From NCBI GenBank assembly GCA_002712005.1, contig PASP01000018.1:1-64000 (forward strand): DNA of 64,000 bases, given 5' to 3'. Source of the DNA: Halobacteriovoraceae bacterium (GTDB taxonomy: Bacteria > Bdellovibrionota > Bacteriovoracia > Bacteriovoracales > Bacteriovoracaceae). The notes under the pieces were generated by a model, which made no database searches, was not told the origin of the DNA, and saw only the letters and a list, made by a program, of their open reading frames with translations. This document shows positions 43,220 to 51,519 of the stretch, piece after piece. Each line of letters begins with the position of its first letter. Position 1 is the first letter of the stretch. Both the position numbers and the translations under genes were made by a program.

Positions 43220-44251
43220 TTAAGATGCTTTATTCTTCTTATTGCCCTGAAATAGTCCATCTGAGCCAAATTTCTTTTGGGCATAGTTCTTTTGAGCATT
43301 CTTTAGGGCCTTCTCTTCTTCAACTAAGACTTCTTGAAGTTTGGCCACCTGATCATCGATACGTAGAGAATTATACTTTTTGAGTTTTCTTTGCAGTTCT
43401 TGCCATTCTTCAATGAGCCCACCACGACCTCTAAAAATTTCAAGATCCGTATTGAGCTCTTCAATAATACTCAGATTCTTGCCTTTCTCTTTTTGAGACT
43501 CTTGTATTTGATTTTGGAAAGTTGTGATCTGCTGATTAAGTTTATTGATCTCATTTTGAAGTTTCGCAATAAAGTGCTTCACTCCCTCAATCTCATCACT
43601 CACCTTCTTATTTACCATTTCCACGGAAGAAATAGTCTTTAAAATATCATTTTCAGAGCGATAATTTTTCATTTTAAAATAATTATCAAACTCTTCAATT
43701 TCTATTTTCTTTTGATCAATCTCACCAAGAAGTAACTTCCTCTCTTCTTTGATCTTTGCAAAGTCCTGAATTCTCTTTTTTATAGAATTAATTTTTTCTT
43801 TATTAGAACGGAGACCCTTTAGAGAATATTGAGCATCCGTTCTTTCTTCTACTGTAATCGGTTCAAACTTATCGTGAACAATAATATTTGAATCTGATGT
43901 CGCCATACTTAATGATCCCGTAAAAGAAGGAAGATCAAGAAAGTCCATATTTCCTTCTTCTGAATTGAAAAAGAAGCAATGCTCACCTACTTGTATAATA
44001 TCTTTTACTTGGAGCGGGTATTTCACTTTGGGATCTAACTTAGCCCCATTCAGATAAGTGCCATTGAAAGAATTAAAATCTTCAATTTGAACACCTTCGA
44101 GGCTTACCGTGATTGTAATATGGTGACTTGAAATTTCTTTATCGTTAATACGAATATCACATGCATTTGATCGCCCTAAAGAAATACTCTTCTTAAAGAA
44201 GATCTTCTTTTGTTTTTGCTTATCAAATATGAATATTTCTTTACCAGTCAA
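43220..44251 (-). CDS. FHA domain protein with coiled coil
   Basis: Residues 20-90 form an FHA phosphothreonine-binding domain (SLGRSNACDIRIND, ISSHHITI, NSFNGTYLNGA). Residues about 145-310 are predicted coiled coil, rich in Glu, Lys and Ile. The C-terminus is basic. The start is TTG with AAGGAG six bases upstream. A sigma-28-like promoter lies 30 bases upstream, so the gene can be expressed apart from the TPR gene. It may read phosphorylation signals; no kinase is encoded nearby. Confidence 0.88.
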   Translation of the reverse strand: MTGKEIFIFDKQKQKKIFFKKSISLGRSNACDIRINDKEISSHHITITVSLEGVQIEDFNSFNGTYLNGAKLDPKVKYPLQVKDIIQVGEHCFFFNSEEGNMDFLDLPSFTGSLSMATSDSNIIVHDKFEPITVEERTDAQYSLKGLRSNKEKINSIKKRIQDFAKIKEERKLLLGEIDQKKIEIEEFDNYFKMKNYRSENDILKTISSVEMVNKKVSDEIEGVKHFIAKLQNEINKLNQQITTFQNQIQESQKEKGKNLSIIEELNTDLEIFRGRGGLIEEWQELQRKLKKYNSLRIDDQVAKLQEVLVEEEKALKNAQKNYAQKKFGSDGLFQGNKKNKAS

Positions 44252-44278
44252 AGATACTCCTTAATCACTACCTTTAAC

Positions 44279-44305
44279 TTATCGGAAAAACGAAAGAAGA
44301 ATTTA
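44279..44305 (-). promoter_or_regulatory. Sigma-28 (FliA)-like promoter of the FHA gene
   Basis: On the minus strand TAAATTCT, 11 bases, TCCGATAA, against the FliA consensus TAAAGTTT-N11-GCCGATAA: 6 of 8 and 7 of 8 with exact spacing. The start would fall near 44272, 20 bases before the TTG start codon. Confidence 0.6.
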
Positions 44306-44306
44306 A

Positions 44307-45923
44307 TTAAAAGGAATATCTGACTTCAGCACCCATATATAATTTGGAAAATGAGTAATTTGCGTCATCTTTTGACATATTTCTCATAAAATCACCAAAA
44401 ACTCCCACTCTCCAATGCTGCTTTATTCTTTTCAGCATTTTAGCTCCGAAGGAGAAGGTCTTTTCCACTCCTCTCGTTTCACTCTGCGCTTTTGTGTCCA
44501 AAAGATTGAGAGAAATATTTAAATTGAGATCCATATTCCATACAAGTCGAGGAATCAAATAGTCTGCTCTAAGAAAGAGCGAGTCTGTGGCATAGAACTC
44601 TTCATTAGGGCGATAGAGATCGGCTTGCATCATCCCAATAATGACGTGGCCATTACTTCTAATATACATCTGATCTAAGTAAAGAGAGCGAGTGGAACCT
44701 GAAATAAGCTCTGAGAAACTCTTTAACTCTCGCAGTTTGATTTTTATAGTCGTTTCCCCTTGAGGAATGAAGCGGTAACGAAGACCTAAAATATAGGTTT
44801 CTGTAGCTCCAAAGAAGTCTTTCTTACCTACAGCATTCTTATCTCTGGCCGTATACGTATATTCATATTCATATAAGAGTGATGAGATTTTCTTATTCCA
44901 ATTAAACTCATAAGCTCCTCTCAATGCAGGAGCAATAGTATATCCATCATTTTGAAATACTGCAGGGTTATTATCATTTAAGTAATTTTCATTTCTTACC
45001 CGAATTTCTGGAGAAAAAACAAATCTTCGAAATCCTAAAAATCTCTTCGAGAGAAAGAGCTCTGAATTCATGATAAGTGAAGAGTCACCCGTGTTTTCAT
45101 TTGTCTGTGTTGGAGAATCTGACTCTTGATTAACATTGGAATCGAAAGCTATATCTTGAGTAAAGGTTAAGGTCGTATTTTTACGACTTAGCATTTTACC
45201 ATTCATAAGAAGTAAGGGATGCATTCCATGCTTTAAAAGGATTTCATCATACTTTGCTCTCACCTCTTCTGATAAAGTAGAGTCATCATCTAATTCGATA
45301 GATCTTCTTAATAATGGAGAAACATAATCTTCAATATAGTTTTGAACATAGAGCTTATCTTTAATATTTTCATAGATAAGCTCACCAAGCTTAAAGTAGG
45401 CCAACTGTTTCATATCTACCGTTGAGCGATCATCTTTAATAATTTTAAGATAATTCTTTTTAACAGATTCTTTATCTTCTAAAAGTTCTGAAATGTAGGC
45501 AATATAATATAGAGAAACATCTGTTTTATACCCTTTATCATAAGTTATTTGGAAGGCCTTTTTGGCCAAACGTAATTCATTAATCGCGTAGAGGGACTGG
45601 GCATATTCATAAAAGAGATCCACATTCCTATAACCTTGAGATATTGAGCGTTTAAAGAAAACAACAGCTTCATCATGGCGTTGTAAACTCTTTAGACAAA
45701 GACCAATTAGGTAATTTCTCTCGGCCTCGATACGATTATCTTTAGCTATACTCAAAAGCTCATCAATGGCCTGCTGATACTCACCTACTTTATAAAGCTG
45801 ATAGAAACGAGTGAAGTGTTTAGAATTTAATTTGATATGAGATTGAGAAGATTTTGCTAACCAAGGTCCTGAAAAACTGGAGAAGAATGAAAAGAGAGCG
45901 AAAATCAAGAAACGACTTCTCAT
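44307..45923 (-). CDS. TPR protein with C-terminal outer-membrane beta-barrel, putative
   Basis: A 538-residue exported protein: signal peptide (about residues 1-24), TPR-like helical repeats (residues 30-220; for example YLIGLCLKSLQRHDEAVVFFKRSI), then about 250 residues of alternating strands with aromatic residues that end in YMGAEVRYSF, a typical barrel end with terminal Phe. Probably an outer-membrane protein with periplasmic TPRs. Lies between FecR and FHA genes. No named family. Confidence 0.78.
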   Translation of the reverse strand: MRSRFLIFALFSFFSSFSGPWLAKSSQSHIKLNSKHFTRFYQLYKVGEYQQAIDELLSIAKDNRIEAERNYLIGLCLKSLQRHDEAVVFFKRSISQGYRNVDLFYEYAQSLYAINELRLAKKAFQITYDKGYKTDVSLYYIAYISELLEDKESVKKNYLKIIKDDRSTVDMKQLAYFKLGELIYENIKDKLYVQNYIEDYVSPLLRRSIELDDDSTLSEEVRAKYDEILLKHGMHPLLLMNGKMLSRKNTTLTFTQDIAFDSNVNQESDSPTQTNENTGDSSLIMNSELFLSKRFLGFRRFVFSPEIRVRNENYLNDNNPAVFQNDGYTIAPALRGAYEFNWNKKISSLLYEYEYTYTARDKNAVGKKDFFGATETYILGLRYRFIPQGETTIKIKLRELKSFSELISGSTRSLYLDQMYIRSNGHVIIGMMQADLYRPNEEFYATDSLFLRADYLIPRLVWNMDLNLNISLNLLDTKAQSETRGVEKTFSFGAKMLKRIKQHWRVGVFGDFMRNMSKDDANYSFSKLYMGAEVRYSF

Positions 45924-46036
45924 GTATTTAAATCCTTAAAATCTTTTAACTTTTGACCTTCTCATCATATCAAAAATTAAAAATTCCAAGGGGTTTAGGC
46001 AATTTATATACCTTCTTACCTATTACCTGAGCTAAT

Positions 46037-47455
46037 CTATCGCCTAACGTTTATTCTGACCTTCCGTCTTTGAATCTCTCTAGTTCTCTTATCTAAAATA
46101 TCAGTATTGTCATTATAGCGAATAACGGTTTCTTTCTTATAATCATTAAAATCAATTGCAGTCCCTATATCCTTAGTGGTTTGGTTTTCGTAAGAAAGAT
46201 CACGAGTGGGAGCATTATTATGAAATCCATTTTGATTGATATTCTTTACGATATTTGCCTTAGGATTTCCTCCTACACTTGCAGGTGCGCGCGTCCCTCC
46301 AGACTTCACGAGCTGACCATTATCTGAAAGCTTCGTTCCTTCAGGGGGTAGATAATCTCCGGAAACGGGGTCAATCGTTCCCACTTCTGGCCCTGGCACA
46401 TAAACACCGGTAGTAGCATCAAAGGCATTTCCCTTTTCAGGTGGAATATAGAGGGCCGTTTCAGCATCTATATAACCACCAGCAGGAGGTGCATAAGCTC
46501 CAGTCGTTGTATCAACCATTCCCTCTGGGGGAATATCCGTTTGAACATCTTCAAAATAGGAATTATCAAGACTATCCCTTTGAAGATCACTCTTGTTAAT
46601 TCCAAGCTTTTTCTCAGCAACATTTTGAATGATATTTTCTTTCTTTGTCGCTACTTTCTTTGCGTTGAGACCAGGTGGCACAGTTGAGCGTACAACCTTC
46701 TTCTTATCTTTTTTCTTGGAATCTTTCTTTCCTTGAGAAACTTCATCTTTTCCTCTTAGCACTTCCAATTGAGCAGGAGAAATTTTCACAGGTAGAGTGA
46801 CTCTATTTTGACCAGGCATGGAGCCTGAGAACTGCCCCCTTCTCACCATCACAGCTTCATCACTATTAAGTCGCGACTCAAGAGAGTTTTGATCAAGATA
46901 CTTTACGCTATCTTGAATTTTGGCCATGGCCACAGCTCCTTCAAAAGTTAAAAGAGAAGTGACCGTATTCTTTGGATTATAAATCACTTGAAAATCAGTT
47001 CCTCTAACTCCCATAGCGGCTGTCTTCGTTTTAATGAAGAGCTTTGAAGTATCTGAGCGATTGATATTCATGCGGTCTTTTGTAACCTTTGATCTAATTT
47101 GACCTTTTAAGAGATCAATCATGCCCGCTTTTTCTTTGGTGAAAGATTTGATTTCAATAGTTGAATTTGGAGAAACCATCATTTGAGACTTATCAAAGAA
47201 GAGAAGCTTTAAGAAGGCACCACTATCACAAGTTACTTTGGCTCCCTCATGAACATTATCCCCTCTTTTTAATACTCTTTTTAAAGTCTTTCCTTCTTGA
47301 TTCACAAAAGATTCAAAGACCTTTCCCTTGAGGATAATCGCTTTGGCCACCTCTTTAGCGGCATGAGTTGCCTGACTTAGACCAAAACTAATGAATCCTA
47401 TCATTAAGAAGGTAAGCCATTTTTGAGAAATATTTCTTAGATAATCGTTACTCAT
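46037..47455 (-). CDS. FecR-domain exported protein
   Basis: From ATG 47455 (AGGATA upstream) the protein has a signal peptide (cleaved near THAAKEV), a FecR domain (GKVFESF...RVLKRGDNVHEGAKVTC...GVRGTDFQV) and a C-terminal region with five short proline-glycine repeats. The domain occurs in FecR sigma regulators but also in structural surface proteins; no FecI/FecA gene is near, so a structural role is more likely. Heads the FecR-TPR barrel-FHA set. The frame is open to 47482, but a sigma-28 -10 lies just above that. Confidence 0.82.
   Translation of the reverse strand: MSNDYLRNISQKWLTFLMIGFISFGLSQATHAAKEVAKAIILKGKVFESFVNQEGKTLKRVLKRGDNVHEGAKVTCDSGAFLKLLFFDKSQMMVSPNSTIEIKSFTKEKAGMIDLLKGQIRSKVTKDRMNINRSDTSKLFIKTKTAAMGVRGTDFQVIYNPKNTVTSLLTFEGAVAMAKIQDSVKYLDQNSLESRLNSDEAVMVRRGQFSGSMPGQNRVTLPVKISPAQLEVLRGKDEVSQGKKDSKKKDKKKVVRSTVPPGLNAKKVATKKENIIQNVAEKKLGINKSDLQRDSLDNSYFEDVQTDIPPEGMVDTTTGAYAPPAGGYIDAETALYIPPEKGNAFDATTGVYVPGPEVGTIDPVSGDYLPPEGTKLSDNGQLVKSGGTRAPASVGGNPKANIVKNINQNGFHNNAPTRDLSYENQTTKDIGTAIDFNDYKKETVIRYNDNTDILDKRTREIQRRKVRINVRR
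46307..46531 (-). repeat. Five degenerate 14-16-residue repeats in the FecR protein
   Basis: Five units follow the pattern PP-x-G-x-(hydrophobic)-D-xx-TG-x-Y-(hydrophobic): PPEGMVDTTTGAYA, PPAGGYIDAETALYI, PPEKGNAFDATTGVYV, PGPEVGTIDPVSGDYL and PPEGTKLSDNGQLV. They lie after the FecR domain and a lysine-rich linker. Confidence 0.8.
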
Positions 47456-47485
47456 AAGTATCCTAAGCCGTTGTCTTCTCATACC

Positions 47486-47493
47486 TTATCGGC
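47486..47493 (-). promoter_or_regulatory. Sigma-28 -10 octamer upstream of the FecR gene
   Basis: GCCGATAA on the minus strand, 8 of 8 to the FliA -10 consensus, about 30 bases before ATG 47455. The -35 position reads TTATATAA and matches poorly (3 of 8), so activity is uncertain. Confidence 0.35.
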
Positions 47494-47586
47494 AGTTTTA
47501 CGCCTTATATAAATTCATTTTAATGGGCCCGCGCACCTAACGAAAATATCATCTAAATATCAACAGTTAGCGGGGCCAAATTTGAG

Positions 47587-47601
47587 AAATGTGTCACATT
47601 T
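47587..47601. promoter_or_regulatory. Palindrome in the FecR / response-regulator divergent region
   Basis: AAATGTGTCACATTT is a perfect 15-base palindrome with 7-base arms. It lies between the two divergent genes, about 65 bases upstream of the response-regulator promoter. It could bind a regulator. Confidence 0.4.
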
Positions 47602-47666
47602 TTGGGGCAAAATAGGTCAATTTAAATGAAATCTGTAGCGATAGAGTGAAGCTAAGTTAGTTTTTC

Positions 47667-47694
47667 TTGAAAAAGATTAAATGGGATTTAAAAT
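47667..47694 (+). promoter_or_regulatory. Sigma-70-like promoter of the response-regulator gene
   Basis: TTGAAA (5 of 6) and TAAAAT (5 of 6) with 16 bases between; start near 47701, leader about 23 bases with AAGGTGAG before the ATG. Confidence 0.6.
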
Positions 47695-47723
47695 AAGATG
47701 AATCAATTAATAAGGTGAGATGA

Positions 47724-48113
47724 ATGAAGCAGATACTAATTGTTGACGACGAATCCGATGTGGGAGAAACCATTCAAGGAATTATTGAAAGCTATAGTGA
47801 AAACGATGGAGACTACCAATCTAAATTTGTCACTTCTGCAAAACAAGCCCAGGATCTTCTCAAGACAGAAAAGTTTGATCTTGTTATAACTGATTTACTT
47901 ATGCCAGAGACCAATGGCATTGAGTTAACGGACTTTATTCATCGCAACCATCCTCATATTAAAATTCTTGCTTGTTCCGGTGGTGGCCAATCAGGTCCTC
48001 TTGTAGCAGGAATGGCGCTAGATCAGGCTTTGGAAGAAGGCGCTGACAATGCAATACTCAAGCCTTTTAGTCCAGAAGAGTTAATGACTAAAATTGCTAA
48101 CCTCCTAAAATAA
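47724..48113 (+). CDS. Single-domain response regulator
   Basis: A 129-residue receiver domain alone, CheY-like. Acidic pocket D8 and D9, phospho-acceptor D57 (VITDLLMPE), S85 in ILACSGGG and K113 in ILKPFSP are all in place. No output domain; the signal must be passed by protein contact. Its histidine kinase is not in the window. Divergent from the FecR operon. Confidence 0.93.
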   Translation: MKQILIVDDESDVGETIQGIIESYSENDGDYQSKFVTSAKQAQDLLKTEKFDLVITDLLMPETNGIELTDFIHRNHPHIKILACSGGGQSGPLVAGMALDQALEEGADNAILKPFSPEELMTKIANLLK

Positions 48114-48169
48114 CTCCTTAAACCAAGGCCAGACACCATCTTTGCCTTATTTATTTAGATCTTTCCTTT

Positions 48170-48178
48170 TGCTATAAT
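48170..48178 (+). promoter_or_regulatory. Extended -10 promoter of the CBS-domain gene
   Basis: TGCTATAAT combines a perfect -10 with the TGn extension, 20 bases before the ATG at 48198, giving a leader of about 13 bases with AAGGAG. No good -35 is present, as expected for this promoter type. Confidence 0.55.
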
Positions 48179-48197
48179 TCGCATAAGGAGTATTTGC

Positions 48198-48842
48198 ATG
48201 GGTCTATTAATTGCAAAGAACGGTAAAATTAGAGATCTAAGCCTTCCCAATCAGGGAAAGGTAAGAAACTCTACCAAAAATATCAATGCTCTTCACAATG
48301 AAGCAAATGTAATAGAAGACAATCGCCAAGAAACTCCCTTTGAAGATGTCCTCAAAAAACAAAAAGAAAAGAACCATCTTCCCCAAAAATTAAGTTCGGG
48401 AATTAAAAGCTATCAGAAACAGAAAACGGATCACGATCACCATCATTCTTCTTGGAAACACCTAACCGCTAAAGACATAGGGTCCAAACCCGTTATTTCG
48501 ATTGGACCCACGGCGACTGTACAAGAGGCCTTATCATTAATGAATAAGTATCAAATTCATCACTTGGTTATTCTTGATCAGGATAAAGGACTTAAGGGGA
48601 TTGTTTCTGATCGTGCCCTTCTAAATAAGCGCTCGAGTGATCCCGTTCTTAATCATGCCGAACTAGAGGTCATCATTACAAAAGAAAGTACAGATATAAA
48701 AATATTGGCCACTTTAATGCTAGAGAAGGACATCTCTGCCCTTCCCTTCATCGATCAAAATGATAAAGTTTCTGGAATCATTACTAAGACTGACATCCTA
48801 GACTACTTAGTCCATGCCCTTCCTTTTCAAACCTATGTTTAA
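48198..48842 (+). CDS. CBS-domain protein
   Basis: A 214-residue protein with a charged N-terminal region of about 90 residues (including a His-rich DHDHHHSSW) and two CBS domains at about 93-210 (IGPTATVQEALSLMNKYQIHH..., TLMLEKDISALPFIDQNDK). A CBS pair usually binds adenine nucleotides. Partner unknown. Its stop overlaps the convergent fliA gene by four bases. Confidence 0.88.
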   Translation: MGLLIAKNGKIRDLSLPNQGKVRNSTKNINALHNEANVIEDNRQETPFEDVLKKQKEKNHLPQKLSSGIKSYQKQKTDHDHHHSSWKHLTAKDIGSKPVISIGPTATVQEALSLMNKYQIHHLVILDQDKGLKGIVSDRALLNKRSSDPVLNHAELEVIITKESTDIKILATLMLEKDISALPFIDQNDKVSGIITKTDILDYLVHALPFQTYV

Positions 48843-49603
48843 GCTGCATCGACTGATGACTTATCTACTCTCTTGCGAAGGCGAGCAACAGAGGATTGAT
48901 GAAGTTGACTTACACGACTCTCCGTCACCTCTAAGCTTTGACTAATTTCACGCATTGTTTTTTCTTCGAAGTAATACATACTTAAAACTTTACCTTCATT
49001 TTCAGGCAAGGAATCAATTTTATCTCGAATATGCTCTCTTATATTATTCTTAGCTGCTGTTTCAAAAGGATCAATATTTGGACTTTCATCTGTAAGCGCA
49101 TTTTGTAGCCCTGGTACTTGATTTTGTGAATTATCCCCAGGGATAAGACTAAAGGTTTGAACAGGCTGGATTCTTTGCATCAATTTGAAAAAGTCCCCTT
49201 TTTCCATATTCATCGCCTTACAGACTTCTTGATCAGTAGCATCTCGACCTAACGAAATCTTAAGCTCATTACTCACTCTTTCAACAGACTTAATTTTGTC
49301 TCGAGTAGCTCGACTTGCCCAATCGAGGGCCCTTAATTCATCTAGAATTTGACCTCTTATTCTATACTCAGCATAAGTCTTAAATTTCACTTCTTGGGAG
49401 GGGTCATATTTCTCAATAGCATCAATAAGACCAATCATCCCACAACTAATAAGATCATCTAATTCGTAATTTGAGGGAAGCTTCATGTAAATCTTCTTAG
49501 CAATAATCTTAACTACATTTACATAAGATAGAACGATTTTCTCTTTATCCTTTCGACTCAACTTACCCGGCGCAAACTCAAGAACTTTAGCATCTGAACT
49601 CAT
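48839..49603 (-). CDS. fliA: FliA-type sigma-28 RNA polymerase sigma factor
   Basis: A 254-residue sigma-70 family protein of the FliA/SigD class: region 2 (ELDDLISCGMIGLIDAIEKYDP, EVKFKTYAEYRIRGQILDELRALDWASRATR), region 3, and region 4 (FEEKTMREISQSLEVTESRVSQLHQSSVARLRKRV). ATG 49603 has GAGGAG seven bases upstream and is preferred over 49639. In motile bacteria it drives late flagellar and chemotaxis genes. No flagellar gene is close by. Confidence 0.93.
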   Translation of the reverse strand: MSSDAKVLEFAPGKLSRKDKEKIVLSYVNVVKIIAKKIYMKLPSNYELDDLISCGMIGLIDAIEKYDPSQEVKFKTYAEYRIRGQILDELRALDWASRATRDKIKSVERVSNELKISLGRDATDQEVCKAMNMEKGDFFKLMQRIQPVQTFSLIPGDNSQNQVPGLQNALTDESPNIDPFETAAKNNIREHIRDKIDSLPENEGKVLSMYYFEEKTMREISQSLEVTESRVSQLHQSSVARLRKRVDKSSVDAA

Positions 49604-49974
49604 GAACATTCTCCTCAATCGTAGACTTCGTTTTCCCATGGCCTAAAAAGCTTATGGAAAATCAGTATCTTTTACTCTTACTGCCCATTATAAATTGCAA
49701 ACCAAAATTGCCCGAGAATTTTTATCCACTTTACCCATTTTCAGTATCTTGTCATAAGTTGCTTTTCTATTCTCTAGTCCTTAAGGGGCAAATGCCAAAA
49801 CATGTGGGCAAATTTCTGACTCATCATGAATAGAATTGGCCCATTCTCAAACGGATTTTAGTTTCTAAAGTCAAGAAAACTTAACGAGATTTGAGACTAA
49901 AAATCCGATTAATCACTAAGATTTATAGATTACCTTACCGACATAGTAAGAAGTTAAGTCAATAACAGAAATTT
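49604..49974. other. Divergent intergenic region, fliA / ankyrin protein
   Basis: A 371-base gap. On the minus strand TATAAT (49691-49686) is a likely -10 for fliA, with no good -35; GCAATTT occurs twice just upstream. GGGCAAAT is repeated near 49788 and 49807. A long inverted repeat is described separately. No small gene seen. Confidence 0.5.
49852..49907. repeat. Long inverted repeat upstream of the ankyrin gene
   Basis: CGGATTTTAGT (49852-49862) and ACTAAAAATCCG (49896-49907) are complementary apart from one extra base, with a further GTTTC/GAGAC near-match inside and a nested AAGT/ACTT. It lies 68 bases before ATG 49975 and could be a leader stem or part of a minus-strand transcript end. 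Confidence 0.5.
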
Positions 49975-51519
49975 ATGAAAGAAGTTACAAGTATTCTCCT
50001 ATTTACTCTAGATCCTAGTCTTCCACAAAAAATTAGTGAAAGAACAGGAATAGATCCATCAAAAATAAGTTTGTGTCGAGAGCTCAAATCCGCATTTGAT
50101 CTCTTAGCTGAAAGAAATTTTGATGCTCTTATCTTTGAGAGCTATAACCAAAGAGATGGGCAGTACATAGGTCTTAATGAAACCGACTTGGACTTACTTC
50201 TTTACTATGCCCATAGCGAAGACTCGATAAATCGCTTCATGAAGTTTGTCCCAATAGACCCTATTCATTCAAGCGAGTCTGGGCCACAAAATAAATCTTT
50301 CGCCGAAGAGCTCTATCCTAAACTCTACGAGCGCTACCTCCTCCTATTACCGGGTATAGCCTTAAATCAATTAGTCTATAATTCGCTCTTTTTGAGTGAA
50401 GAAAAGAAAATCCTCTTTGATCTTATCAATACCCTTGATTCCGCTTGTGACCAAATCGATGGAGAACAAGAAAATCACTTCTCCTCAGATTCTAACTCTT
50501 CAGAGGATTTAACCACAGTAAAAGGTCAGTATCCCACAAATGATGAAAATATAAGAATCAGTGGTCAAAAAGAAGAAATCAAAGATTCGGCTCATTGGAT
50601 TCAAGACCCTGACGGCTCCTCAAAGCAGCATCAAAAAGACGAAGTGCAAATCGTTAGTGGCCTTTCTGAAGATCTCCAAAGTCATGATGATATCTATGTT
50701 ATAGAAGGTGCCGCAAAAGAAAGTGAGGAGCACTTTAAAATAGCAGGAAATTCAGAAGAGAGTGAAGAACTCTATAAAATAAAGGGAAGCTCTGAAGACG
50801 AAAGTCTCTCTGAGAAAAATCAAAAGACAATCCTAAAAGGAAATGGAGAAAAGATCACAGAAGGGATCATGAAAGTGAAATCTCTAGGAAATACAAATGA
50901 CTCTCACGCTTTTGAATTTAACGGGATAAAGAGCTTAAACTCCAAATCAAAACCTACAACACCAGTATTAGATGAGAGCTGGGAAGAATCCGGTGACATC
51001 AATCACAGAAACGCTCAAGGCCAAACTCCTGTCATGCTCTATAGCTACAAGGGTGATAAAGATAAAGTGATGGAACTTATTGATAAAGGAGCGGATACAT
51101 CTTTGAAATGTAAAAGGGGCTTTACACTCTTACATTACGCTTGCTCTCATAAGAATAATTTATCTCTAGTTGAATATCTTGTTCAAGTTGATAAATTAAA
51201 AGTCACTGCTCGAAACTCTGATGGATTTGACTCTCTCGCCATGGCGATTCAAAGTGATTCCTCAGAAATTGTAAAATGGCTCATTTCTCAAGGGGCAAGA
51301 ACCAACTCAAAAATTAAAGGCCTTCCCCTTCTCCACTATGCAGCTCAACATAATAGTTTTAAAAGCTTTCTCGTTCTTCTTTCGACCGGTGTAGAATTGA
51401 AAACAAGAAGTAGAGAGGGACTTACAGCAGAACAATTTTGTAAAAGAAAGAGGAAACTGCCCTTTGTAAAAGCTCTTAAAGCATATGAGAAGCTTAACCA
51501 TATTAAAAAAGCTGCTTAA
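49975..51519 (+). CDS. Protein with short repeat linker and C-terminal ankyrin repeats
   Basis: A 514-residue cytoplasmic protein. Residues 1-95 look like a degenerate receiver-type fold (ILLFTLDPSLPQKI...FDALIFESYN) without a certain phospho site. Residues 181-305 hold about eight copies of a short (V/I)x(I/V)xG..E(E/D) repeat in an acidic region. Residues 335-490 are four to five ankyrin repeats (for example NAQGQTPVMLYSYKGDKDKV, RGFTLLHYACSHKN, LPLLHYAAQHN). Function probably protein binding. No clear Shine-Dalgarno. Confidence 0.8.
   Translation: MKEVTSILLFTLDPSLPQKISERTGIDPSKISLCRELKSAFDLLAERNFDALIFESYNQRDGQYIGLNETDLDLLLYYAHSEDSINRFMKFVPIDPIHSSESGPQNKSFAEELYPKLYERYLLLLPGIALNQLVYNSLFLSEEKKILFDLINTLDSACDQIDGEQENHFSSDSNSSEDLTTVKGQYPTNDENIRISGQKEEIKDSAHWIQDPDGSSKQHQKDEVQIVSGLSEDLQSHDDIYVIEGAAKESEEHFKIAGNSEESEELYKIKGSSEDESLSEKNQKTILKGNGEKITEGIMKVKSLGNTNDSHAFEFNGIKSLNSKSKPTTPVLDESWEESGDINHRNAQGQTPVMLYSYKGDKDKVMELIDKGADTSLKCKRGFTLLHYACSHKNNLSLVEYLVQVDKLKVTARNSDGFDSLAMAIQSDSSEIVKWLISQGARTNSKIKGLPLLHYAAQHNSFKSFLVLLSTGVELKTRSREGLTAEQFCKRKRKLPFVKALKAYEKLNHIKKAA
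50515..50889 (+). repeat. Short (V/I)x(I/V)xG repeats in the ankyrin protein
   Basis: Units include IRISGQKEE, VQIVSGLSED, YVIEGAAKES, FKIAGNSEES, YKIKGSSEDE and TILKGNGEK, spaced 13-17 residues apart (about residues 181-305). The DNA is too diverged to be a recent duplication. Confidence 0.65.

Follow-up and report, generated by a model that had tools for sequence, protein, structure and literature searches.

A FecR and TPR-barrel gene pair of Bacteriovoracales as a candidate split counterpart of the outer-membrane sensor NsrA

What might an exported FecR protein, an outer-membrane barrel with TPRs and a coiled-coil FHA protein do together when they are encoded in a row beside a lone receiver, a CBS protein and fliA? 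These genes lie in a 64,000-nucleotide stretch of a Halobacteriovoraceae bacterium genome (assembly GCA_002712005.1, contig PASP01000018.1, positions 1 to 64,000; here called the window). An earlier note, made from the letters alone, had proposed them as a candidate undescribed envelope system, possibly one for signal sensing and timed with motility. The six open reading frames and the domain calls of the note hold: the FecR, TPR-barrel and FHA genes are consecutive on the minus strand, the receiver and CBS genes diverge from them on the plus strand, and fliA lies beyond. None of the proteins tested from 41.5 to 51.5 kb was a FecI, a FecA/TonB receptor or a kinase, as the note had also said, and no Rfam elements were found. 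The features, as positions in the window, are these:

43220-44251, minus strand: FHA coiled-coil protein (Pfam FHA, 2.5e-17)
44307-45923, minus strand: protein of 538 residues with TPRs and a 14-strand outer-membrane β-barrel (AF2 pLDDT 91.8)
46037-47482, minus strand: exported FecR-domain protein of 481 residues (Pfam FecR, 7.2e-13; AF2 model; aligned orthologues)
46334-46522, minus strand: four repeats of the FecR protein, residues 321-383 (sequence; model pLDDT >90 in the repeats)
47486-47512, minus strand: candidate sigma-28 (FliA) promoter of the FecR-barrel-FHA operon (exact −10 GCCGATAA, weak −35 TTATA)
47724-48113, plus strand: single-domain receiver (Pfam Response_reg, 4.6e-21)
48198-48842, plus strand: CBS-pair protein (Pfam, two CBS domains, 3e-24)
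48839-49639, minus strand: FliA (sigma-28), outside the operon (TIGR02479, 232.7 bits against a cut-off of 189.6)

The barrel was found in 112 of the 129 genomes of the order. Of 87 distinct barrel genes (those with a readable neighbour, identical sequences removed), 84 have FecR directly upstream on the same strand; a broken FecR, a barrel in two pieces and the edge of a contig account for the other three. These loci were read from whole genomes (40) and from named contigs (67, nearly all titled Bacteriovoracia or close kin), which partly overlap. Other families of the phylum kept the pair in eight of nine loci; the ninth (L214), close to the end of its contig, has no recognised FecR. Sampling across the phylum showed a barrel that is common in the window's family and rare outside it. 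FecR and barrel are two adjacent genes in the window and in every related locus that we read. In contrast, FHA and the receiver are linked to the pair in g1 and g17 and CBS in g1 only. The conserved synteny of six genes that the earlier note proposed to look for in Bacteriovoracaceae gave way to a smaller unit, a nearly family-wide two-gene module of FecR and TPR-barrel. The six genes as one system were rejected, the rest being linked at genus level and rearranged.

The FecR protein has a signal peptide, a FecR domain, four repeats of about 15 residues (consensus G-x-D-xx-T-G-x-Y-x-P-P) and a conserved C-terminal strand, in agreement with its description in the note as exported and carrying its own repeats. 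Its true start is probably 47455 (472 residues) rather than 47482, because an AGGA-type ribosome-binding site precedes the former and the promoter-like −10 abuts the ATG of the latter. In the AF2 model (pLDDT 78), the FecR domain matches the PupR CSSD and a Parabacteroides anti-sigma factor (structures 6ovk and 4m0h). These matches would suit Fec-type cell-surface signalling with an unlinked sigma factor, and both FecA/FecR/FecI and PupB/PupR place a FecR/CSSD-like periplasmic domain beside an outer-membrane barrel. Those systems, however, have a TonB-dependent receptor, an anti-sigma part and an ECF sigma factor. Here the FecR protein is exported whole, with no cytoplasmic anti-sigma part, the barrel has 14 strands and no TonB-receptor Pfam domain, and no ECF sigma gene lies near FecR, FliA being the sole sigma gene nearby. 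A Fec-type role is thus highly improbable.

The TPRs of the barrel protein fall below Pfam cut-offs and are plain in the AF2 model, which was built on 50 aligned relatives. The TPR arm consists of helices between residues 38 and 231, and the 14 strands span residues 250-537. Among solved structures, the pores CymA (Z 22.5) and OmpG (Z 20.7), each of 14 strands, come closest in fold. A ligand site marked by conservation of the extracellular loops was considered and rejected, the loops being no more conserved than the strands or the TPRs.

The third gene of the locus differs between copies of the pair. A CHASE2-cyclase gene lies directly downstream of the barrel in 29 distinct loci, with gaps of 8-28 bp, and FHA is the third gene in 6 distinct loci and also in L046, where an opposite-strand ORF separates it from the barrel. 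Many copies have neither. Examples of the last kind are L123 (4277-7204), L071, L072, L116, L124, L125 and L130; in such loci, a large lipoprotein often adjoins FecR and barrel, and genes for a histidine kinase and a response regulator lie downstream in convergent orientation. Of the 129 genomes of the order, 128 encode CHASE2 proteins. The window's own genome carries a CHASE2-type paralogue of the locus on another contig (L041), in the order DUF3943, small barrel, FecR, TPR-barrel, CHASE2, cyclase. In a tree of barrels, the FHA-linked copies form one clade (99% SH-aLRT), joined by L046 and L048 (100%), and share their half of the tree with CHASE2-linked copies, apart from most copies with neither gene. 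FHA occupies the position that the cyclase holds in sister copies; since the root of the tree is not known, we do not claim that the window copy lost a cyclase.

Two features of the paralogous locus stand by themselves. Its CHASE2-cyclase gene has an in-frame TAG (L041:7070-7072, G000:C3:310069-310071) where relatives have glutamate; this reflects a recent nonsense mutation or else an error in the assembly. Convergent with the locus, a split gene of two ORFs (L041:921-6248) encodes a large tail-fibre-like surface protein that ends in a Peptidase_S74 chaperone, and in L054 another S74-type protein follows the FecR-barrel pair.

Could the barrel be an export pore instead, of the Slam/T11SS type or the TPR-barrel polysaccharide type, with FecR as its periplasmic plug, adaptor or cargo and FHA unrelated? 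TPRs joined to a barrel are the architecture of the exporters BcsC and PelB, which are among the top Foldseek matches by whole-chain layout, and the FecR protein weakly resembles adhesin retention modules (structure 5ix9, profile NF033682). Moreover, large lipoproteins lie no more than two genes away in 17 of 48 copies with neither cyclase nor FHA, where about 13% would be expected from background. They adjoin only 1 of the 29 CHASE2-cyclase loci and 0 of the 6 FHA loci, however, and the tight linkage of those 29 loci is to a cyclase, not to cargo. The 14 strands place the barrel nearest to CymA and OmpG, with which it shares a monomeric pore fold, and the window differs from BcsC, PelB and these pores in its invariable FecR partner and in having no polysaccharide synthase genes in the neighbourhood. 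PF04575 (Slam, SlipAM) had no match in the protein at E 1 or in 57 genomes of the order, where control searches were equally silent. We consider an export pore unlikely for the locus as a whole, and recognise that an export role also fits the several copies beside large lipoproteins, which count against a sensor.

The linkage of FecR, TPR-barrel and CHASE2 cyclase has counterparts beyond the phylum. On plasmids of alphaproteobacteria, CHASE2 cyclases adjoin FecR genes in Paracoccus, Shinella, Ruegeria, Ensifer and Methylocystis. In Paracoccus, a TPR-barrel-like gene, FecR and the cyclase lie 9 and 12 bp apart, and the order in Shinella is identical; Ruegeria has FecR and cyclase, Ensifer a divergent arrangement, and the Azospirillum CHASE2 cyclase locus no annotated FecR. 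In Methylocystis and on pSymB of Sinorhizobium meliloti, one protein of about 1,200 residues holds FecR, TPRs and a barrel-like C-terminal region, the pSymB domains being read from a FecR profile match and from 39% identity with the Methylocystis protein across 98% of the length. The next ORF on pSymB is a CHASE2 cyclase that overlaps the stop of the FecR-TPR-barrel ORF. This polypeptide is very probably NsrA, an identification based on its length of about 1,200 residues and the position of its barrel, which fit NsrA with its barrel reported at 600-1200 (PMC7529298). NsrA is required for the perception of a protein signal via the CHASE2 cyclases CyaK and CyaD1/D2 (PMC7529298, PMC13001267); ribosomal protein uL2 in its free form, that of E. 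coli included, is a signal to which NsrA responds (PMC7529298).

S. meliloti NsrA has the FecR domain, TPRs and outer-membrane barrel in the same order as the window pair, and its CHASE2 cyclase is adjacent on pSymB as it is in the L041-type paralogues of Bacteriovoracales. NsrA is one polypeptide, whereas the window has two genes and its locus lacks the cyclase. The FecR domains are homologous: our FecR profile (alignment A4) matched the pSymB protein with 91% probability (E 1e-6). The barrels are not detectably so, as hhalign gave 4.5% against NsrA, over the TPR part only, and less than 5%, again a weak TPR signal, against the Paracoccus TPR-barrel; therefore the barrels may be analogous. 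That the same parts are fused in one lineage and split in another argues that they function together. In Campylobacterota, a gene cluster encodes a CHASE2 adenylate cyclase, a phosphodiesterase, a FecR protein and a TPR protein (PMC9239204). It resembles the Bacteriovoracales loci in FecR, TPR protein and CHASE2 cyclase, but differs in the phosphodiesterase and has no FHA version described. The claim that no system of this composition had been described is hence too broad, given this cluster and the experiments on NsrA with its cyclases in Sinorhizobium (PMC7529298, PMC13001267). For the FHA variant of the FecR-TPR-barrel module, we found no description, and the papers searched included none on FecR with FHA and TPR or on FecR in Bacteriovorax.

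From the conserved pair, the CHASE2 linkage and the NsrA architecture, signal sensing at the envelope, one of the roles offered in the note, emerges as the best reading. We give a probability of about 50% to a specific form of it, in which the window encodes a split, NsrA-like FecR-barrel sensor of the outer membrane with a cytoplasmic FHA protein in the place of the cyclase, driven by FliA in the attack phase. FecR and TPR-barrel would be one sensory unit, the two-gene counterpart of NsrA. The 14-strand barrel would face the outside, with its TPR arm and the exported FecR in the periplasm, and we infer that FecR contacts the barrel, which could pass ligand binding or the state of the pore on to FecR. 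The commoner loci would have an inner-membrane CHASE2 adenylate/guanylate cyclase as the next partner. The window's clade lacks the cyclase gene at the locus and encodes the cytoplasmic FHA coiled-coil protein in its place, so that the output would probably be a protein switch that depends on phosphothreonine rather than a cyclic nucleotide. The step from the periplasm to the cytoplasmic FHA protein is hypothetical and the weakest of the mechanism. FHA linkage is confined to two genera, and no inner-membrane protein is encoded in the window's operon; both weigh against this reading. As a guess, the signal could be carried across the inner membrane by a PspC-type membrane protein with two hydrophobic stretches, which in g1 relatives and g17 is encoded directly or nearly upstream of FecR, with RHH beside the receiver. 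PspC and RHH lie between FecR and the receiver in L142, L083 and L046 and are absent from the corresponding interval of the window (47483-47723); in the window's genome they are together on contig C9 (G000:C9:263792-264573).

The FHA domain (residues 24-89) is followed by a coiled coil. G26, R27, S41, H44, N63 and N68, the canonical phosphothreonine-binding residues, are invariant in seven sequences, and no hydrophobic or membrane segment was seen by hydropathy, which argues for a cytoplasmic protein. Three Ser/Thr kinase genes of the window's genome exceed the Pfam cut-off and could supply its phosphothreonine ligand.

Is FHA a partner of the pair or a mere neighbour? Full-length relatives of the FHA coiled-coil protein stand without this FecR-barrel pair in g13, g15, g19 and g35, and in g19, the third genus of the clade, the pair persists without linked FHA. 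The order in g13 (L148) is RHH <-> PspC, four genes, two more genes, FHA and dtd; FHA-dtd is also present in g15. PspC/FHA blocks without the pair suggest that an older block probably received it, leaving FHA as partner or neighbour. On the latter reading, FHA would be left over from a PspC/RHH ... FHA-dtd block and the FecR-barrel pair would signal elsewhere, and the barrel-FHA gaps (55-119 bp), which exceed the barrel-cyclase gaps, suit it. Yet FHA runs in the direction of the pair in g17 and in every g1 locus where it is present, and no terminator-like sites were found within the window's operon. The four genes after PspC in g13 include another TPR protein whose C-terminal half is barrel-like, with no detectable homology to our barrel, and five genomes of g15 have another FecR gene in divergent orientation to FHA; TPR-barrel and FecR are thus recurring kinds of partner at or near FHA. 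We regard a purely positional FHA as rather unlikely and retain FHA as the probable output of the sensor.

The attack-phase part of this sensor reading comes from the promoter. In Bdellovibrio, the attack-phase consensus TTAAG-N16-CCGATA has been attributed to FliA (PMC3627812). The window's FecR gene is preceded by the exact −10 box with a weak −35, and three same-genus relatives and L048 show the full spacing of the Bdellovibrio consensus, TTAAA-N16-CCGATA or CCGACA. Five of eight FecR promoters of the clade, which are not independent, scored in the top 5% against 1,435 background genes; only 1 of 29 CHASE2-type FecR promoters did so for this motif. The 27-base pattern with at most one mismatch occurred at 108 sites in the genome vs. 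52 for a reversed control, so that about half of such sites are due to chance and FliA control is best called plausible. The suggested timing with motility thus gains from the motif in the clade and loses from its absence in two of the eight promoters and from the weak −35 of the window. If the promoter acts as its sequence suggests, FliA would probably turn on the operon when the cell swims in attack phase. The divergent promoter region also holds a perfect 15-bp palindrome, AAATGTG-T-CACATTT (47587-47601), exact only here in the window and not found in the intergenic regions of relatives.

It is conceivable, and we think it doubtful, that a FecR-barrel receptor made in the attack phase under FliA has switched partners and reports prey contact or lysis products to FHA and not to a cyclase; if so, a single sensor scaffold would serve two sorts of output within one cell. 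For the way in which Bacteriovorax-type predators recognise prey, the module offers a candidate sensor of two genes, nearly family-wide and probably exposed at the surface, that has an analogue studied by experiment in NsrA, and the window's genome would hold two paralogous output arms, cyclase and FHA, one of them tied by its promoter to the attack programme. The comparison also suggests that the FecR/TPR/CHASE2 clusters of Campylobacterota and rhizobial NsrA represent one receptor architecture, fused or split. Beyond fliA and divergent from it, the window encodes an ankyrin-repeat protein with an acidic, repeat-rich middle (49975-51519), which is kept in L142 and L161.
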